A stretch of 37,073 nt of DNA, from NCBI GenBank assembly GCA_011522725.1, contig WTIL01000081.1, positions 66,259-103,331 of the forward strand, given 5' to 3'. Positions within the stretch are counted from its first letter, which is position 1. Each line of letters opens with the position of its first letter. Origin of the DNA: Rhodospirillaceae bacterium (lineage in GTDB: Bacteria; Pseudomonadota; Alphaproteobacteria; Puniceispirillales; Puniceispirillaceae). The notes beneath the pieces are model-generated. The model did not search any database. It saw only the letters and a list, made by a program, of their open reading frames with translations, and was not told where the DNA came from. This document shows positions 1 to 9,671 of this stretch, in pieces. The position numbers and the translations under genes are program-made.

Positions 1-1075
1 AACGGCGTTGACGGTTGTGATCCAGCCACGCAGCGTCTCGTCCATCGCGCGCGGTGTCTCCAAGCGAGACCAAGGCATCAAGAAAGGCGCCGGGATCACT
101 CAGGAGCGTCATATCCGCTGCACGGTTGAAATCCACTTCCTCATGCGAGCCGTTGACGCATACGAGTTCGGCGCCGCGCGGGAACAGCGGCGGATTGCCA
201 AAATTCATCTGGTTGTCCAGCCGGCCCCCGACCATCAGGACAAGGTCGGCCTCGCCAAAGGCGTCTTTCGACGGGTGGTACTGGTGGATGTCGGCAAGGC
301 CCATATATGCCGCGCTCTGCTCGCTGAGCAGCTTCTGGTGATAGGGAACATTGAAAACGGGTATGCCGAGCTTGCGGCCAGCTTCCTCAAGCTGCTGCTC
401 GGCACCGGCCCACCAGACTCCATGGCCGCCGATCAGGATCGGTCGTTTCGCGGCCGCGACCTTCGCAAGAACCTGCTGAAGACGCTGCGGTTCCGGCCAG
501 GCACGTGCCGGCGCTTCGGCTGAAAGCTCGAACGGGCGTTCAGCCCGGCCGGCATCCTCGCTGAATGATGAAAACATGATATCAACCGGCAGGCTCAGAT
601 GAACAGCGCCGGGATATCCGTTGATAGCGGTCTTGTAGGCGCGGTCAACGAACTCGCCGATCCGCTCGCCATCGGTGATCGACACGCTGTATTTGGTCAG
701 CGGACCAGCGATGGCGACATCATCGATTTCCTTGAAACCGCCGGCACCCTGGCGTTTCAGGGTGCTCGAACCCGTCACGAAGATCACCGGCGATCGTTCG
801 CCCCATGCCTCCATCATGGCCGGAACGGCGTTGGCGAACCCTTCAGGCCCGACAAGGCAGACGGCCGGTTTGCGGGTTATTCTGGTGTGCCCGTCGGCAA
901 GGTGGCCGGCCACCTGCTCGTGCGGGCAGTTTACCACCTTCATCTGACATTCCATGAACCCTTCCAGCGCCGGATTGCAAAACCCTCCGGAAAGGGTGAA
1001 GACATGCTCTATGCCCTTTTCCTTCAGGGCGCGCGCCAGAAGCGCCCCGCCACGGATTTTGCGGACGCCGGTCAT
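1..1075 (-). CDS. ThDP-dependent enzyme, acetolactate synthase-like (partial at left edge)
   Basis: I translated this frame directly from the reverse strand. It begins with ATG at 1075 and stays open for 358 codons to the window edge, so the C-terminal part is missing. The N-terminal ThDP pyrimidine-binding domain is clear: the motif PHEQVAGHLADGHTR carries the conserved activating glutamate (E53), followed by KPAVCLVGPEGFANAVPAMMEAW. A central domain follows (KRPILIGGHGVWWAG; LVLMVGGRLDNQMNFG), as in acetolactate synthases, oxalyl-CoA decarboxylases and 2-hydroxyacyl-CoA lyases. The ThDP pyrophosphate-binding domain would lie outside the window. Its start overlaps the stop of the upstream hydroxyacid dehydrogenase by four bases (ATGA), so the two are probably translationally coupled. 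A shared 2-oxo/2-hydroxy acid pathway is an inference; the exact substrate cannot be told. Confidence 0.88.
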   Translation of the reverse strand, partial: MTGVRKIRGGALLARALKEKGIEHVFTLSGGFCNPALEGFMECQMKVVNCPHEQVAGHLADGHTRITRKPAVCLVGPEGFANAVPAMMEAWGERSPVIFVTGSSTLKRQGAGGFKEIDDVAIAGPLTKYSVSITDGERIGEFVDRAYKTAINGYPGAVHLSLPVDIMFSSFSEDAGRAERPFELSAEAPARAWPEPQRLQQVLAKVAAAKRPILIGGHGVWWAGAEQQLEEAGRKLGIPVFNVPYHQKLLSEQSAAYMGLADIHQYHPSKDAFGEADLVLMVGGRLDNQMNFGNPPLFPRGAELVCVNGSHEEVDFNRAADMTLLSDPGAFLDALVSLGDTARDGRDAAWLDHNRQRR

Positions 1076-2241
1076 GCCTTGCCCGCAGGCAGGACAGCAA
1101 ATCCGGGGTGCGATGACGCGAGGCAGTGCCGTCCAAGGCCGGCTACCGAGCTGTGGCCGAGCAAACCCATCACGGTTGCGGTCTCCTTACTGACCTGATC
1201 AAGCATTCTCGACAGACCTCGTTCCGCGTCGGCACCGATGCCGTACATCACTGTACGTCCCAGCATGACAAAATCTGCCCCGCAGGCAAGAGCTTTGACC
1301 ACATGCTCGCCCGACCTGATGCCACCATCCATGATCACGGGGTAATCATCGCCAACCGTGTCACGTACGGCGGCAAGGGCTTCAATGGCGCTAGGGGCGG
1401 CGTTCAGTTGCCGTCCTCCATGGTTCGACACCCAGATCGCGTCTGCGCCCGCCGACTTGATGCGCTCTGCGTCGGCAGGGCACTGCACCCCTTTGATCAC
1501 CAGCTTGCGCTTCCATCGTGACCGCAGGCGTTCCAGATAGTCCCAGTCGGCGCCGGTCCGGTCAGCGCCGCGCTCGAAACTGGCACCTGATGACGATGTT
1601 GCATAATTCATCGTGCGTGGCAGTCCGCTGGCGAGTGTGGCACCGAGTGTGGCGATCGACCAGCGGGGATGCGTGGCAAGATCCCAGATCTGGCGTGGCC
1701 CCCAGTGAAAGGGATATTTGAAGCCGTTGCGCAAATCGCGGATCCGCTGTGAAAGGACCGGCACATCAACCGTCAGGATCAGAACCTCGTATCCGGCCGC
1801 TTCCGCCCGGTCCACAAGCTCGTCCGTGAATGCCGCTGACCGATCAGCATAGAGCTGGAACCATGCGTTGCCGCCGGCAACTTCCTGCATGGCTTCAAGC
1901 GTTGTCGAGGATGCTGTCGAAACGCACACCGGGATCCGCCGCGCGGCAGCGGCGCGCGCCAGCATCATGTCGGCGCCGGGCCAGGTCAGATTGCACATGC
2001 CCATGGGGGCAATGCCGAAGGGACTGCCGGTCTCCATGCCCAGAAAGCTGTGGGAAAGATCGCGGGTGGCGACATCGGCCAGCACCCGCGGCATGAGCCG
2101 TATGGCATCAATCACCCGGCTGTTGATGTCACGCAAGGATTCGTCTCCGGCAGCGCCGTCGACAAAGTCGAACATCATTCGCGGCAGCCTTGAGCGCGCC
2201 ATCAGGCGGGCCTCGTCTGCCGAGAAAAAGCGGCCTGCCAT
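1072..2241 (-). CDS. FMN-dependent alpha-hydroxy-acid dehydrogenase (LldD / glycolate oxidase family)
   Basis: The 389-residue protein has the length of the family that oxidises L-2-hydroxy acids to 2-oxo acids with FMN in a TIM barrel. Visible signatures are FQLYAD, the LTVDVPVLSQR strand, the FMN-contacting lysine in LVIKGV, the catalytic histidine in WVSNHGGRQL, and the phosphate-binding end IMDGGIRSGEHVVKALACGAD / MLGRTVMYG. I chose ATG at 2241 because GGAGAC lies six bases upstream; the open frame extends further but only as a shadow of ectC. At the N-terminus the usual substrate-carboxylate tyrosine (Y24 of spinach glycolate oxidase) appears as phenylalanine (PRMMFDFVDG, F26). Lactate, mandelate, glycolate and tartronate are possible substrates. 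The stop overlaps the next ThDP gene by ATGA. Confidence 0.93.
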   Translation of the reverse strand: MAGRFFSADEARLMARSRLPRMMFDFVDGAAGDESLRDINSRVIDAIRLMPRVLADVATRDLSHSFLGMETGSPFGIAPMGMCNLTWPGADMMLARAAAARRIPVCVSTASSTTLEAMQEVAGGNAWFQLYADRSAAFTDELVDRAEAAGYEVLILTVDVPVLSQRIRDLRNGFKYPFHWGPRQIWDLATHPRWSIATLGATLASGLPRTMNYATSSSGASFERGADRTGADWDYLERLRSRWKRKLVIKGVQCPADAERIKSAGADAIWVSNHGGRQLNAAPSAIEALAAVRDTVGDDYPVIMDGGIRSGEHVVKALACGADFVMLGRTVMYGIGADAERGLSRMLDQVSKETATVMGLLGHSSVAGLGRHCLASSHPGFAVLPAGKA

Positions 2242-2401
2242 AATGTCTCCATCCGGCTGTTTCGGGACCTTCGCAGAAAAGTCTAACAAAGAAACGGATT
2301 TGCCAATATCCGAATAGTGGCGTTCGCAAGATCGGCCATGCGCGGCTGAACCATGACGACAGCCCGCAATGATGTGCCAAGGTCGAAAGGGTGAGGGGCG
2401 G

Positions 2402-2788
2402 CTAGTCCGCGAGCCTGTAGCTGCCGTCGGCGTCATGGGTTTCGCGGCCCGACAAAGCCGGCGAAAAGGTGCATACAAGCCGCAGGTCGCCCTTGGTGGC
2501 GCGCAGAATATGCCGGTCATGCTTGTCGAGCGCATACATGGTGCCCGGCCGGATCGGCCAGATGGTGCCTGTGGCGACATCGACCACTTCGCCTTCGCCC
2601 TCGATGCAGTAATTCACCTCGAGATGGTTCTTGTATTCGAGATGCAGCTCGGCGCCTTCCCTGACCAGTGTGTCATGAAGCGAACATCCCATCCTGTCGT
2701 CGGCGAGGACGATCCGGCGGCTCTCCCAGCCGTCACCACTGGCATGCCGCCATGATCCGATGACATCCTTCAGCTCACGAACAATCAC
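2402..2788 (-). CDS. ectC: L-ectoine synthase, solitary EctC
   Basis: From GTG at 2788 the product is 128 residues, the usual EctC length. EctC is a cupin-fold enzyme that cyclises N-gamma-acetyl-diaminobutyrate to ectoine in the cytoplasm. The sequence carries YKNHLEVNYCIEGEGEV and PGTMYALDKHDRH, hallmarks of the family. The iron ligands known from Paenibacillus lautus EctC fall at identical numbers here (E57, Y85, H93), and W21, R25, T40 and Y52 are present. The start is set by AGGAG nine bases upstream; the frame is open back to 3022 but the extension has no family resemblance. No ectA, ectB or ectD is visible in the window. Neighbours are an FMN hydroxyacid dehydrogenase downstream and pxpABC divergent upstream. 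The substrate in this context may therefore be different or imported. Confidence 0.93.
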   Translation of the reverse strand: MIVRELKDVIGSWRHASGDGWESRRIVLADDRMGCSLHDTLVREGAELHLEYKNHLEVNYCIEGEGEVVDVATGTIWPIRPGTMYALDKHDRHILRATKGDLRLVCTFSPALSGRETHDADGSYRLAD

Positions 2789-2797
2789 GTCCTGTTT

Positions 2798-2802
2798 CTC
2801 CT
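2798..2802 (-). promoter_or_regulatory. Ribosome binding site deciding the ectC GTG start
   Basis: AGGAG on the minus strand with a nine-base spacer to GTG at 2788. It supports the 128-residue product over the 206-residue open frame. Confidence 0.7.
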
Positions 2803-3086
2803 GCACATCGTGAAAACGAACGACCGTCTCGTCAATCTGCGCTGACGGGCCCCGGCGATCATGTTTTTCGCCATGGAAGCCCGGGCAATTGAAACCAAGG
2901 CACACGCCATCGCCCGGATGGAACTGCTGGTGTGACTTGTAACAGCGTTTCATTTTGCCAGGGAATTGGCAACGCAATTCAGGCTGAGACAGGCTCCCGG
3001 CGGACGACTTTTCCGCCGGCAACTTTACATTTCAGGACCGTTATAAAATAGTGGAAGCAGGCCGGGCGTGCGCACCGGTTGTCTGC

Positions 3087-3093
3087 GGGAGGG
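3087..3093 (+). promoter_or_regulatory. Ribosome binding site for the pxpA GTG start
   Basis: GGGAGGG lies seven bases before GTG at 3101. The bases GAGG-GTC-CCTC at 3089-3099 could fold back on this site into a small hairpin, which might lower initiation; that is inference. Confidence 0.6.
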
Positions 3094-3100
3094 TCCCTCT

Positions 3101-3880
3101 GTGGCATATGTCGATCTGAATTCTGATCTTGGCGAAAGTTTCGGCCAGTACAAGATTGGCGAGGATGAGGAGATGATGAAAATCATTTCCTCAGCCAATG
3201 TCGCTTGCGGCTTCCATGGCGGCGACCCGCAGGTGATGCACGAGACCCTGTCACAGGCAAGGGCGAACGGCGTGGGGGTCGGCGCGCATCCCGGGTTCAA
3301 TGATCTGTGGGGCTTTGGCCGTCGCCGGATAGTCGGAGACAGCCCGGCTGACATCGAAAAGTCGCTTGTCTATCAGATCGGCGCGATCCAGGGCATGGCG
3401 ACCTCGCTCGATATGCGGGTCACGCATTACAAGATCCATGGCGCCCTCAGCAACATGGCCTGCGAGGATGAAGATCTGGCCATGGCCGCGGCGCGGGCTG
3501 TGAAGTCCGTCGATCAGGACCTGATTTTCCTCGTTCTTCCCGGAAGCGAGCTTGAAAAGGCGGGCGAGAAGCTGGGGCTCAATGTGGCGCGCGAGGTCTT
3601 CGCCGACCGCGCCTATGAGGATGACGGCATGCTGGTCTCGCGAAAGAAGGACGGTGCCATGATCAAGGACGCCGCCGAGGCCGGCAGGCGGATGGTCCGG
3701 TTCATCGAGGATGGCGCGATGCAAAGCATCAATGGGAAGCGCATACCGGTTCAGATTGACTCGATCTGCGTTCATGGTGACAGCCCGACGGCGGTGGCTA
3801 TGGCAAAATCGGTCCGCAACGCGCTGATCGATGCCGGTATCGAGATCAGGCCGATGCACGAGACGATGTTTCCGTCCTGA
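3101..3880 (+). CDS. pxpA: 5-oxoprolinase subunit A (LamB/YcsF family)
   Basis: The product of 259 residues matches the LamB/YcsF family, the subunit that works with PxpB and PxpC in ATP-dependent opening of 5-oxoproline to glutamate. Family motifs are VDLNSDLGESFG near the N-terminus, ANVACGFHGGDP around residue 30-45, GVGAHPGFNDLWGFGRR, THYKIHGAL and CVHGDSP near the end. I took GTG at 3101 as the start because GGGAGGG lies seven bases upstream and because translation from it begins at the conserved N-terminus; the in-frame ATG at 3068 adds only unrelated residues. It is first in a tight plus-strand operon: pxpB begins five bases after its stop. The divergent neighbour is ectC. Confidence 0.95.
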   Translation: MAYVDLNSDLGESFGQYKIGEDEEMMKIISSANVACGFHGGDPQVMHETLSQARANGVGVGAHPGFNDLWGFGRRRIVGDSPADIEKSLVYQIGAIQGMATSLDMRVTHYKIHGALSNMACEDEDLAMAAARAVKSVDQDLIFLVLPGSELEKAGEKLGLNVAREVFADRAYEDDGMLVSRKKDGAMIKDAAEAGRRMVRFIEDGAMQSINGKRIPVQIDSICVHGDSPTAVAMAKSVRNALIDAGIEIRPMHETMFPS

Positions 3881-3885
3881 CAGAT

Positions 3886-4617
3886 ATGGCGACCCCCGAC
3901 GTACAGTACCTGTCCAGCGGCGACACCGCGCTTACCGTCCAGTTCGGCACCGTGATCGAACGCGAACTGAACAGCCGGATCGTCGCGCTCGGCCACAGCA
4001 TCGCACAGGCCGCGATCGCGGGTGTCAGCGAAACGCTGCCGACCTATCGTTCGCTGCTGGTGAATTATGACCCGCTGGTGGTGACACGCGACGAGCTTGT
4101 CGCGCAGCTTCAGCCGCTAATCGAGTCTCCGCCGGAAGCCGGTGATGCCGCGCCGGCCCATTGGCAAATTCCGGTCTGTTTTGACAGTGACCTTGCCCCT
4201 GACCTTGCCCATGTCGCCGCCGCGTCGGGGCTGGACGAGAATGAGGTCATCAAGGCCATGCTCGAGGTGACGCATCATGTCTATATGCTCGGTTTCGCGC
4301 CGGGGCAGCCCTATATGGGCGACCTGCCGCCGGCCCTGAACATTCCGCGTCGCGAGAATCCTGTTGCGCGGGTGGAGAAAGGGTCGGTTGTGACCGCCAC
4401 CGGCCTGACCATCATCTATGCCGTGCCGAATCCCACCGGCTGGCATGTGGTGGGGCGCACGCCGGTCGAGATCTTCAACCTTGCGCGCGAGGAGGCGATC
4501 CTCTTCAAGCCCGGGGACAAGGTCCGTCTCAGCCGGATCGAGCGCGATGAATTCGACGAGCTGACGGCACAGGTCGATGACGGCAGCTTTGACATGACAC
4601 GCTTGAGGCAGCCATGA
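3886..4617 (+). CDS. pxpB: 5-oxoprolinase subunit B (KipI / allophanate hydrolase subunit 1 family)
   Basis: The 243-residue product fits the AHS1/KipI family. Its signature GFAPGQPYMGD begins at residue 136, followed by the conserved IPRRENPVARVEKGSV stretch and PTGWHVVGRTPVEIF. In the PxpABC complex this subunit pairs with PxpC for the ATP-dependent step on 5-oxoproline, in the cytoplasm. The gene starts five bases after pxpA ends and its stop overlaps the pxpC start by four bases (ATGA), so the three are a translationally coupled unit. KipI-type sporulation control can be discounted because pxpA is adjacent. Confidence 0.95.
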   Translation: MATPDVQYLSSGDTALTVQFGTVIERELNSRIVALGHSIAQAAIAGVSETLPTYRSLLVNYDPLVVTRDELVAQLQPLIESPPEAGDAAPAHWQIPVCFDSDLAPDLAHVAAASGLDENEVIKAMLEVTHHVYMLGFAPGQPYMGDLPPALNIPRRENPVARVEKGSVVTATGLTIIYAVPNPTGWHVVGRTPVEIFNLAREEAILFKPGDKVRLSRIERDEFDELTAQVDDGSFDMTRLRQP

Positions 4618-5654
4618 GCGCGGGGCTGGAAGTCATCTCGCCGGGCCTGATGACAAGCGTTCAGGACCGTGGGCGTTTCGGCTATCAGGCGCTTGGCATT
4701 TCTGTGTCGGGGGCGCTCGACACCGACAGTTTCGACATCGCCAACGCGCTTGTGGGTAATGAGTCCGGGAACAAGGTTGGGACGGGCGCGCTGGAAATCC
4801 GGATGCTCGGCCCGACACTGAAAGTGACGGCGGACAGCGTGACGGTGGCACTTGCCGGCACCGCGACCGCGATCGAGGTGGTGGCGCCTGAAAGGGAGGT
4901 GATTTCCGCCTGCCGCAGCGTCACCCTTCTGAAAGGACAGGTCTTCAGGGTCGGGGCGGTCAGCGACAGCGCTGTCTGTTATCTCGCTGTCCATGGCGGC
5001 TTCGACCTGCCCCCGATCTATGGCAGCCAGTCGACCTGCATGTCGGCGGGGTTTGGCGGCTTCCACGGGCGCATTCTGGAAAAGGGGGATTGCCTGCCAC
5101 TGCGCCAGCCCGTCAGCGGCTCTTCATCGCAGCGCATTCTCAGGCGGCCGCCGGACCCGGACAACTCGCCGTTCATCAGGGTGGTTGCCGGCCCGCAGGA
5201 TGACTATTTCTCCACCGCTGGTATCAAGACCTTCTTCGAAACAGGCTACACCGTCTCGCAAGCGGTCAACCGCATGGGCATGCGTCTCGAAGGGGCGGCT
5301 GTCACGCATGAGAAGGGTTACAACATCGCTTCCGACGGCATTGTACGCGGCGCGATCCAGGTGCCGGGCAACGGGTTGCCGATCATTCTGATGGCGGATT
5401 GCCAGACCACCGGCGGGTACCCGAAAATCGCGACGGTCATCTCGTCGGACATGCCGAAGCTCGGCCGGATGATGCCGGGGGCGGATATCAGGTTCAAGGC
5501 AGTCTCAGTCGGCGAGGCAGAGGCTGTCGCCCGCGAGCGACACGAACGCCAGGCTGCGCTGATCGGCGCGATCGAACGGTTCAGCGGTTCGGTTGAACAG
5601 CTCGAGCATCTTCTGATGACACAGAACCTGATCAGCGGCGTGACGGCGGGTTAG
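4614..5654 (+). CDS. pxpC: 5-oxoprolinase subunit C (KipA / allophanate hydrolase subunit 2 family)
   Basis: The 346-residue product begins with the AHS2 hallmark: GLMTSVQDRGRFGYQALGIS, then SGALDTDSFDIANALVGN. Further family features are GGFDLPPIYGSQSTC, the VVAGPQDDYFS segment and the C-terminal block ASDGIVRGAIQVPGNGLPI / LMADCQTTGGYPKIATVISSD. It completes the PxpABC 5-oxoprolinase, which hydrolyses 5-oxoproline to glutamate with ATP. It overlaps pxpB by ATGA and is the last gene of the operon, converging on an alpha/beta hydrolase 23 bases away. Confidence 0.95.
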   Translation: MSAGLEVISPGLMTSVQDRGRFGYQALGISVSGALDTDSFDIANALVGNESGNKVGTGALEIRMLGPTLKVTADSVTVALAGTATAIEVVAPEREVISACRSVTLLKGQVFRVGAVSDSAVCYLAVHGGFDLPPIYGSQSTCMSAGFGGFHGRILEKGDCLPLRQPVSGSSSQRILRRPPDPDNSPFIRVVAGPQDDYFSTAGIKTFFETGYTVSQAVNRMGMRLEGAAVTHEKGYNIASDGIVRGAIQVPGNGLPIILMADCQTTGGYPKIATVISSDMPKLGRMMPGADIRFKAVSVGEAEAVARERHERQAALIGAIERFSGSVEQLEHLLMTQNLISGVTAG

Positions 5655-8666: not shown

Positions 8667-9671
8667 CTAGCAGACGGCCGCGTCGTTCCAGCGGCGGTCC
8701 TCGAAAATACGGCCGGTGAAGCGGCCTGACAGGACGTCATCGCGCGCCGCGTCCCATGCGTCGCCCCATGCCTGCGGGTCGCGAAGCTCGCTCTGCGGGT
8801 CGGCCTTGCTTCGTGCGACAAAGCCGGGAAAGGCCGGCCTGCCGGATGCCTGCCCGACCGGGTGGTAGCGCAAATCCATGCTCCAGCGCAGACCGCCCGA
8901 CAGGTTCGGCAGCGCGCGATGCACATTCATCTTGTGGAACAGCACGACGCCGCCCTTGCCGACGGGAAGCGGCGTGCCCTCGCGCCCCGCCATCACCTTG
9001 TCAGGGACCTGCGGCTCGCGCGCGATGGCCAGGTTCGAGCAATGCACCTTCGGGCCCTCGCGATGCGATCCGGCGATGGATGTCAGGCAGCCATTCTCGA
9101 TCGTCGCCTCGGTGATCGCCAGCCACACCGTCACCTGGTTGGTGTCGTCGGCATCTTCAAGAAGGGCGACAATGTCCTGATGCCAGGTGGTGGCGCCGAC
9201 ATTCGAGTGGCCCGACACCTCGTCATGCAGCGCCGTCGCCGGCGGCTTCATCCGCATCTGCTGGACCGGGCTGGCGAAAATCTCCGGCCCGATGATGTCC
9301 TCGACCACGTCGAGGATGCGCGGATGGCGCATCAGCTCGAACACGGCCGGGCCGTGATGCATGTGATAGGTGTCTGGCTCGCGTCCCTCGTTCAGCAGCG
9401 GCAGCGAGATATTCAGGAACTGGTGCAGCACCGGATATTCGGCGATCACCCGCGCGTAGCGCGCGCCGAATTCGAGGCCTTCATAGCTGTCCGAAATTTC
9501 GCCCCGCGCATAGAGGTCTGTCGCCAGCCTGTCGAGAAGCTCGGCATATTCGGTTTCGATGGGGGCGAGGTCCTCCGGCGGCACGACATTGTCGATGGCG
9601 AGAAAGCCGTCACGCTCGAACGCGGCGAGCTGGTCCTCGGTGAGGGTGGAGGGGGCAGGTCTGGTCTTCAT
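8667..9671 (-). CDS. Phytanoyl-CoA dioxygenase (PhyH) family Fe(II)/2-oxoglutarate oxygenase
   Basis: The 334-residue protein opens with LTEDQLAAFERDGFLAIDNVVP, the usual PhyH N-terminus. The iron triad is visible as H164 and D166 in TWHQDIV and H251 in NVHRALPNLSGG, followed by the 2-oxoglutarate-contacting arginine region GLRWSMDLRYHP. It therefore probably hydroxylates or dealkylates a small substrate using Fe(II) and 2-oxoglutarate. It is clearly not the ectoine hydroxylase EctD: it is longer and lacks the EctD signature. The 163-base gap upstream (9672-9834) is the widest in this run and could carry its own promoter. Substrate unknown. Confidence 0.92.
   Translation of the reverse strand: MKTRPAPSTLTEDQLAAFERDGFLAIDNVVPPEDLAPIETEYAELLDRLATDLYARGEISDSYEGLEFGARYARVIAEYPVLHQFLNISLPLLNEGREPDTYHMHHGPAVFELMRHPRILDVVEDIIGPEIFASPVQQMRMKPPATALHDEVSGHSNVGATTWHQDIVALLEDADDTNQVTVWLAITEATIENGCLTSIAGSHREGPKVHCSNLAIAREPQVPDKVMAGREGTPLPVGKGGVVLFHKMNVHRALPNLSGGLRWSMDLRYHPVGQASGRPAFPGFVARSKADPQSELRDPQAWGDAWDAARDDVLSGRFTGRIFEDRRWNDAAVC

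Follow-up and report, generated by a model that had tools for sequence, protein, structure and literature searches.

The window analyzed here, a 37,073-nt stretch of DNA, carries a solitary ectC gene. We give a probability of about one half to the reading that its product is an intact EctC of an orphan branch, an iron cupin that acts on an amide or a cyclic amidine derived from an amino acid and has its part in uptake, catabolism, or salvage, not in making an osmolyte. We observed directly that the fold and the ligand set are intact, that EctA and EctB are missing, that the gene is under purifying selection, that its product belongs to a clade in which residue 59 is Asn, and that the ectC genes of the sister clade lie among amidase and uptake genes.

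The solitary ectC gene and its product

The ectC gene (2402..2788, minus strand) encodes 128 amino acids from a GTG start and represents an orphan "N59" subfamily of ectoine synthase. Its reading frame stays open in the 5' direction as far as position 3022, and we placed the start at the GTG at 2788 because homology and the relatives begin there. The 78-codon open frame 5' of this GTG is only loosely conserved, with indels relative to the sister species (G055), and was read as non-coding. Family profile searches placed the protein in the ectoine synthase family, with 172 bits to PF06339 (cut-off of 27) and 170 bits to NF009806 (cut-off of 128). Aligned to PDB structures 5onm and 5bxx, it has all three of the metal ligands that the original prediction had named, E57, Y85, and H93 (window numbering), which is also the numbering in Sphingopyxis alaskensis EctC, the Paenibacillus lautus ligands being E57, Y84, and H92 (PMC6344544). 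Residues W21, S23, R25, T40, Y52, C106, and F108 are likewise retained, and position 38 is His, as it is in 97 of the 100 ectAB-linked EctCs surveyed. The AlphaFold model (pLDDT of 87.6) superposes on 5bxx (chains B-D) with an rmsd of 0.8-0.9 and on 5onm with one of 1.0, and its best Foldseek matches are 5bxx, 5by5, 5onm, 5onn, and 5ono, in line with a predicted EctC cupin fold. Between the window species and its sister species, the gene has a dN/dS of 0.076 at a dS of 0.275, and, judged by these substitutions, it is selectively maintained under purifying selection. From its sequence, the protein looks catalytically intact, as had been proposed, and it probably still performs EctC-type chemistry.

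The genes that would supply an ectoine synthase are missing. As originally noted, ectA, ectB, and ectD do not occur within the window, and family profile searches extended this to three genomes: the window's own metagenome-assembled genome (G000; 86.5% complete), the sister species, and a member of another genus of the same family (G025; ~100% complete), whose intact EctC is 86% identical to that of the window. The EctA model had zero matches in any of them, and no true EctB was found; the matches to the EctB model were generic aminotransferases far under the cut-off (at best, in the window's own genome, 167 bits versus 552). The linked ectA and ectB that mark a bona fide, ect-cluster ectoine synthase are thus lacking in all three. 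Only one PhyH protein, that at 8667-9671 of the window, was tested as a candidate EctD, and it was rejected at 37 bits versus 336.5. Within the limits of the assemblies, these searches support ectC being solitary across the genome, and hence an orphan EctC encoded without ectAB. With no EctA and no true EctB in any of the three genomes, the near-complete one included, osmolyte synthesis is an unlikely role for this protein. Solitary ectC genes are known, as the original prediction stated; they account for 145 of 582 EctC records, and their role has been called unresolved (Czech et al. 2018, PMC5924519).

The genome check for uptake and breakdown genes that had been proposed alongside the search for ectA and ectB also came back negative. 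In the three ectC-bearing genomes of the family that were searched, the EutE model had no match and the EhuB model matched only under its cut-off, while EutD/DoeA and EutE/DoeB, which would indicate ectoine catabolism by a doe or eut route, did not rise above theirs (the window's own assembly being 86.5% complete). An M24 protein on a separate contig of that assembly (C33) is EutD-like, yet scored 405 bits against a cut-off of 613, and the M20-type protein adjoining it did not match EutE.

Residue 59 and the orphan clade

A single residue beside the metal site sets the window protein and its relatives apart. Residue 59 (codon at 2612..2614, minus strand) is Val in all 100 ectAB-linked EctCs surveyed and Asn in all 13 members of the window's clade, and it is the sole alignment column in which the two sets have zero overlap; both have the same metal ligands and share most of their substrate residues. 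By this distinction, which was derived in this analysis and not from the literature, the window EctC, with its Asn59, falls outside the ectAB-linked type. Residues E57 and N59 share a predicted strand (57-70) and stand two positions apart on it, so a same-side orientation is expected.

In a tree of EctC sequences with many unresolved forks, the window protein groups with those of Marinibacterium, Sulfitobacter brevis, and G025 in a 13-member clade (support of 97/95), and the sister group of seven (99/95) contains the amidase-linked orphans. Specifically, an amidase gene lies within 1 kb of ectC in six of these seven. Two Rhizobium have the arrangement ehuBCD or ehuBCDA-amidase-ectC, Caballeronia has a binding-protein gene followed by amidase and ectC, with a Paraburkholderia locus laid out alike, and Shinella and Burkholderia multivorans have amidase-ectC with genes for PAAT-type binding proteins and GntR regulators. 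Most of the sister-clade amidase-ectC operons include amino-acid or Ehu-type transporter genes and GntR or MocR genes. We found no report of amidase-ectC operons or of EctC-like ring opening in the literature searched. The closest relatives of the window protein (G025, Marinibacterium, and Sulfitobacter brevis) have no amidase within 1 kb and differ from one another in context, and a catabolic reading is for this reason one carried over from the sister clade.

Further orphan ectC genes adjoin NRPS, PKS, or ATP-grasp genes, and one function common to all orphans is therefore not required. Hydroxyproline-catabolism genes were seen beside two orphans, at two loci only and in two different EctC groups, and were set aside.

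The pxpABC neighborhood

The ectC gene stands back to back with three genes of the 5-oxoprolinase families, as had been described, with 312 bp between the divergent starts (2789..3100); in the sister species, this region measures 323 bp and is mostly conserved, with indels. The pxpA-like gene (LamB/YcsF family; 3101..3880, plus strand) matched PF03746 at 322 bits and NF003814 at 369 bits, and the nearest solved relatives of its product are 1v6t, 2dfa, 1xw8, and 2xu2. It is followed on the same strand by a pxpB-like gene (carboxyltransferase subdomain C/D; 3886..4617; PF02682, 211 bits) and a pxpC-like gene (carboxyltransferase subdomain A/B; 4614..5654; PF02626, 281 bits; TIGR00724, above cut-off), whose product has E. 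coli YbgK (5dud) as its nearest solved relative. Three adjacent subunits of the correct families make up the gene set expected of PxpABC. Since PxpB and PxpC fall under the cut-offs of the 5-oxoprolinase equivalog models (TIGR00370, 129 versus 145.6 bits; PxpC equivalog, 233 versus 500 bits), the label pxpABC is meant at the family level only. We recognized neither a pxpT-type transporter nor a pxpR-type regulator directly beside these genes.

The original prediction had named a lack of conservation of this neighborhood among relatives as evidence against it, and that is what the survey returned. Among the loci surveyed, the adjacency is restricted to the window species and a single sister (an apparent further case, L008, duplicates a 3272-base contig of G055 and adds no occurrence). 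Neither the remaining EctC loci nor the 29 further PxpA loci retrieved as the closest show it, so it does not extend beyond sister species as a conserved module would. The ectC gene is patchy, occurring in three of the family's 61 genomes; within the genus (12 genomes), ectC and pxpA are both present in the same two and both absent from the other ten. In a sample of 385 genomes, the EctC and PxpA families co-occur above expectation (15/37; Fisher p 0.004), but genome size is a confounder here and the genes are not linked elsewhere: among the 15 genomes with both, the matches have adjacent coordinates only in the window's own. At four Porticoccus/Cellvibrionales loci, pxpB and pxpC genes lie ~6 kb from ect operons; with 27-36% identity and no adjacency, they were taken as unrelated.

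Downstream of ectC lies a gene for an FMN-dependent 2-hydroxyacid dehydrogenase (1072..2247, start approximate; minus strand; PF01070, 410 bits), which forms, with the TPP-enzyme gene that precedes it, an older pair of the genus. Three congeners (G050, G053, and G054) keep this pair without ectC or pxp beside it, and the ectC-pxp block therefore looks like a recent gain. The pairing itself was not found in the literature searched, and the case for it as a specific reading is weak.

Possible roles and known systems

Under the reading that we prefer, the orphan EctC would retain EctC chemistry, either closing a ring by joining an amine to a metal-activated amide carbonyl or, in reverse, opening a cyclic amidine, on an amino-acid-derived compound other than pathway-made N-gamma-acetyl-diaminobutyrate. 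Asn59 may alter the substrate or the direction, and the role may be catabolic. PxpABC could, in this genus, take the place as C-N hydrolase that the amidase holds in the sister clade; by analogy, this is conceivable but doubtful, and it is the weakest step. In a further version, which we consider very unlikely and which the literature searched does not describe, Asn59 orphans would hydrolyze a cyclic amidine (for example, ectoine-like or ADPC-like), after which an amidase, replaced in the window's genus by the ATP-driven PxpABC, would cleave the amide or lactam produced. The original suggestion of a ring-opening or ring-closing role in place of osmolyte synthesis thus survives in part: the missing EctA and EctB favor it and the sister-clade amidase and uptake operons agree with it in spirit, whereas pxpABC did not hold up as the conserved partner.

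That partnership would be a functional module in which EctC turns glutamine, or an amide related to it, into ADPC or another five-ring amidine and back again, and the five-ring lactam derived from it is opened by PxpABC. The retention of the divergent layout and intergenic region in two species at a dS of ~0.3 speaks for it, as do the matching presence and absence within the genus and the co-occurrence of the two families, but the two carriers are sister species and count about once. The glutamine idea is chemically possible, given that EctC converts glutamine to ADPC reversibly; however, Halomonas elongata EctC does so with very low efficiency, and the equilibrium lies on the glutamine side (PMC5924519). 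With the adjacency missing elsewhere among the loci surveyed and PxpB and PxpC under their cut-offs, we regard such a module as unlikely. The metal ligands and the majority of substrate residues, being retained, would suit an ordinary ectoine synthase engaged in salvage, closing to ectoine N-gamma-ADABA that is imported or made from imported ectoine metabolites, as proposed for Pseudomonas syringae, whose orphan EctC reportedly enables an H. elongata ectC mutant to make ectoine again (PMC5924519). Ehu-type transporter genes adjoin ectC in some relatives, yet the EhuB and EutE results given above, the V59N change fixed in the window's clade, and the lack of a known source of N-gamma-ADABA beyond ectoine metabolism (PMC6344544) make salvage of this kind improbable. 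A laterally gained leftover or neutral hitchhiker, having no role today and an unrelated 5-oxoprolinase operon as its neighbor, would account for the patchy distribution, the insertion beside an older gene pair, and the differing contexts of close relatives; it is hard to reconcile with the low dN/dS between two species that both keep the catalytic residues intact, or with an intact copy in another genus, and we consider it highly improbable.

An orphan group with a residue-59 change, together with the amidase and uptake operons of its sister group, makes the long-standing question of orphan EctC testable. The exceptionless split at this position points to the mutant to make, the sister-clade operons (amidase, amino-acid or Ehu-type uptake, and GntR or MocR regulators) offer concrete candidate substrates, and residue 59 could help annotation pipelines to avoid labeling such genomes as ectoine producers. 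If the enzyme does run in the ring-opening direction, the ectoine-synthase fold would be put to a new use.

Relative to the PxpABC 5-oxoprolinases of E. coli, B. subtilis, and C. glutamicum (PMC13274462), the window has the same three families in the order A-B-C, but its PxpB and PxpC do not reach the equivalog cut-offs, and 5-oxoproline is a putative substrate here. The ectoine catabolism clusters (ehuABCD-eutABCDE, enuR) are echoed in the sister-clade orphans, with their Ehu-annotated transporters and MocR-type regulators, while the window's own genome offers, at most, the EutD-like M24 protein. Like the orphan EctC proteins that Czech et al. (2018, PMC5924519) placed in groups 2 and 3, the window protein is solitary, alphaproteobacterial, and in possession of its ligands. 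Finally, it shares the fold of the EctCs of P. lautus (5onm/5onn/5ono) and S. alaskensis (5bxx/5by5) at 47-48% identity, along with the metal triad and most substrate residues, but differs from both in being encoded without ectAB, in having Asn rather than Val at residue 59, and in belonging to a separate orphan clade.

The ectC locus and the ectoine pathway

The window's ectC (2402-2788, minus strand) matches PF06339 at 172 bits and NF009806 at 170, and it is divergent from pxpA, with the two start codons 312 bp apart; pxpA, pxpB, and pxpC (3101-5654, plus strand) were assigned through family matches for PxpA, PxpB, and PxpC. The encoded EctC retains E57, Y85, and H93 and, by sequence comparison, most of the residues that contact the substrate in P. 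lautus, while an AlphaFold model (26 sequences, pLDDT 87.6) has solved ectoine synthases as its best structural matches. The original prediction of an intact EctC was thus borne out by the retained ligands, the family score, and the model. Because PxpB and PxpC score below the 5-oxoprolinase equivalog cut-offs, 5-oxoproline stays a putative substrate of PxpABC.

The gene had also been described as solitary, and our profile searches agree for three genomes of the family, namely the window's own (G000; 2.26 Mb, 86.5% complete), that of a sister species in the same genus (G055), and that of a member of another genus (G025), which is ~100% complete, the other two assemblies being less so. Across these three, the EctA and EutE models gave zero matches, the EctB model found aminotransferases only, all below cut-off, and all EutD and EhuB scores fell below cut-off. 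A PhyH protein in the window was rejected as EctD, as its score is not EctD-grade. Separately, a EutD-like M24 protein (L125:12395-14757, contig C33 of G000; 405 bits against a cut-off of 613) adjoins an M20-type peptidase gene, and the same M24/M20-type pair comes after an agmatinase-like gene in G025.

A solitary gene might be a decaying leftover. Between G000 and G055, ectC shows a dN of 0.021 and a dS of 0.275 (ratio 0.076; pxpA, 0.051), and it is intact in both genomes, as is the G025 copy (86% identical). The low ratio, from a single species pair, and the three intact copies argue against decay. In the same species pair, the FMN-dehydrogenase gene (1072-2247) has a dS of 0.045, relative to 0.275 for ectC and 0.349 for pxpA, which hints at recent recombination across that gene.

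Distribution of the ectC-pxp pairing

The adjacency of ectC and pxpABC, from which a role in opening or closing amino-acid-derived lactams, or in salvage, had been proposed, proved not to be conserved beyond two sister species in the loci surveyed. Among 61 genomes from the family, EctC scored above cut-off in 3 and PxpA in 17, and the adjacent pair occurred only in G000 and G055; in the latter, gene order is kept across the remainder of the block, with the genes spread over two contigs that adjoin in window coordinates. A candidate third case (L008) was rejected as the same 3272-base contig in a public collection. Further, across the fetched EctC loci, pxp genes lie within 1 kb of ectC in these two genomes only; before tandem-repeat filtering, this set included 100 distinct EctC sequences that are ectAB-linked and 69 that are not. 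On the PxpA side, 29 further loci, the closest of those fetched, hold no ectC in their flanks (~1.5 kb; 0/29). Across 385 alphaproteobacterial genomes, 37 have an EctC match, 79 a PxpA match, and 15 both, which is above expectation (Fisher p 0.004, genome size uncontrolled); coordinates put the two together only in the window's own genome. Three congeners (G050, G053, and G054) keep the FMN-dehydrogenase/TPP-enzyme pair and carry regulator or peptide-transporter genes where ectC sits in the window. Given this flanking pair without ectC, and a pairing limited to two genomes, the block looks to have been acquired once in the window's lineage.

Residue 59 and orphan EctC subfamilies

Our survey covered 169 distinct EctC sequences, counted as ectAB-linked when ectA or ectB lay within 1 kb. 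Residue 59 is Val in 100/100 ectAB-linked sequences and Asn, Cys, or Val in orphans (those encoded without ectAB). Every alignment column was ranked, so that column 59 was not picked by eye, using as reference the tree-defined clade of 13 that includes the window's EctC. Column 59 was the sole column with zero overlap between this clade and the ectAB-linked sequences, and column 42 came second. It also ranked first against all Asn/Cys orphans, but residue 59 had itself defined that group, which makes the comparison circular. Most of the Val orphans (n=17), orphan by neighborhood within 1 kb, come from halophilic Gammaproteobacteria, Wenzhouxiangella and Marinobacter among them. Residue 59 lies two positions past ligand E57 on the same predicted strand (57-70), so its side chain should point the same way as that of E57; we did not find it named among the substrate contacts in publications on the P. 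lautus and S. alaskensis enzymes.

Cys59-type orphan genes adjoin a polyketide synthase gene in Rhizobium gallicum (L214), a non-ribosomal peptide synthetase gene in Mycetohabitans (L217), and a tryptophan-halogenase gene in Gloeothece (L219), neighbors that suggest a natural-product role for this group. On plasmids of Rhizobium etli (L215) and Sinorhizobium meliloti (L218), an orphan ectC is followed by a gene whose annotation reads acetyl-CoA carboxylase biotin carboxylase subunit family protein. EctC-like domains also occur in tandem, with eight at L192:35-3334 (G364, contig C81) and seven at L206:6995-11099 (G395, contig C106), several of these sharing one open frame; shorter tandem matches occur in G173, G275, G319, and G439. 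Several domains lack Trp21 or Thr40 equivalents.

Relatives of the window's EctC and a candidate substrate class

In a maximum-likelihood tree of 77 EctC sequences, in which many forks are weak, the window's EctC groups with those of G055, Marinibacterium, G025, and Sulfitobacter brevis (92/76) within the clade of 13 (97/95). A neighboring group of seven (99/95) holds all six Asn59 orphans with an amidase within 1 kb, judged from available flanks. Specifically, two annotated Rhizobium plasmids carry a MocR-type regulator, ehuBCD(A), amidase, ectC, and an NAD(P)H-dependent oxidoreductase; an annotated Caballeronia locus, to which that of Paraburkholderia is identical in layout, carries a MocR-type regulator, binding protein, amidase, ectC, DUF2817, and a VOC protein; and in the unannotated Shinella and Burkholderia multivorans loci, amidase-ectC is accompanied by genes for a PAAT-type binding protein and GntR. 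The amidase is absent at the ectC locus of the seventh member, Shinella sp. WSC3-e. Hydroxyproline-catabolism-like genes (proline-racemase family, FAD oxidase, DapA-like, and aldehyde dehydrogenase) lie near two orphan ectC of different groups (L009:2405-6897 and L202:4868-8740).

EctC closes its ring when iron polarizes the amide carbonyl and the amine attacks; the H. elongata enzyme can in addition turn glutamine into ADPC in a reversible reaction of very low efficiency, and it hydrolyzes some synthetic analogues of ectoine, with scarcely any action on ectoine (PMC5924519, PMC6344544). The retained chemistry residues, the one pocket-side change, the lack of a genomic route to N-gamma-ADABA, and relatives in amidase and uptake operons together make it the best-supported reading that the window's EctC would handle an amino-acid-derived amide or cyclic amidine other than N-gamma-ADABA, in a reaction that may belong to catabolism or salvage. 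The window's nearest relatives differ from the amidase-linked group in their ectC neighbors, which are a branched-chain-type transporter and a thiolase in G025, an AraC-type regulator in Marinibacterium, and transposase-like genes in S. brevis.
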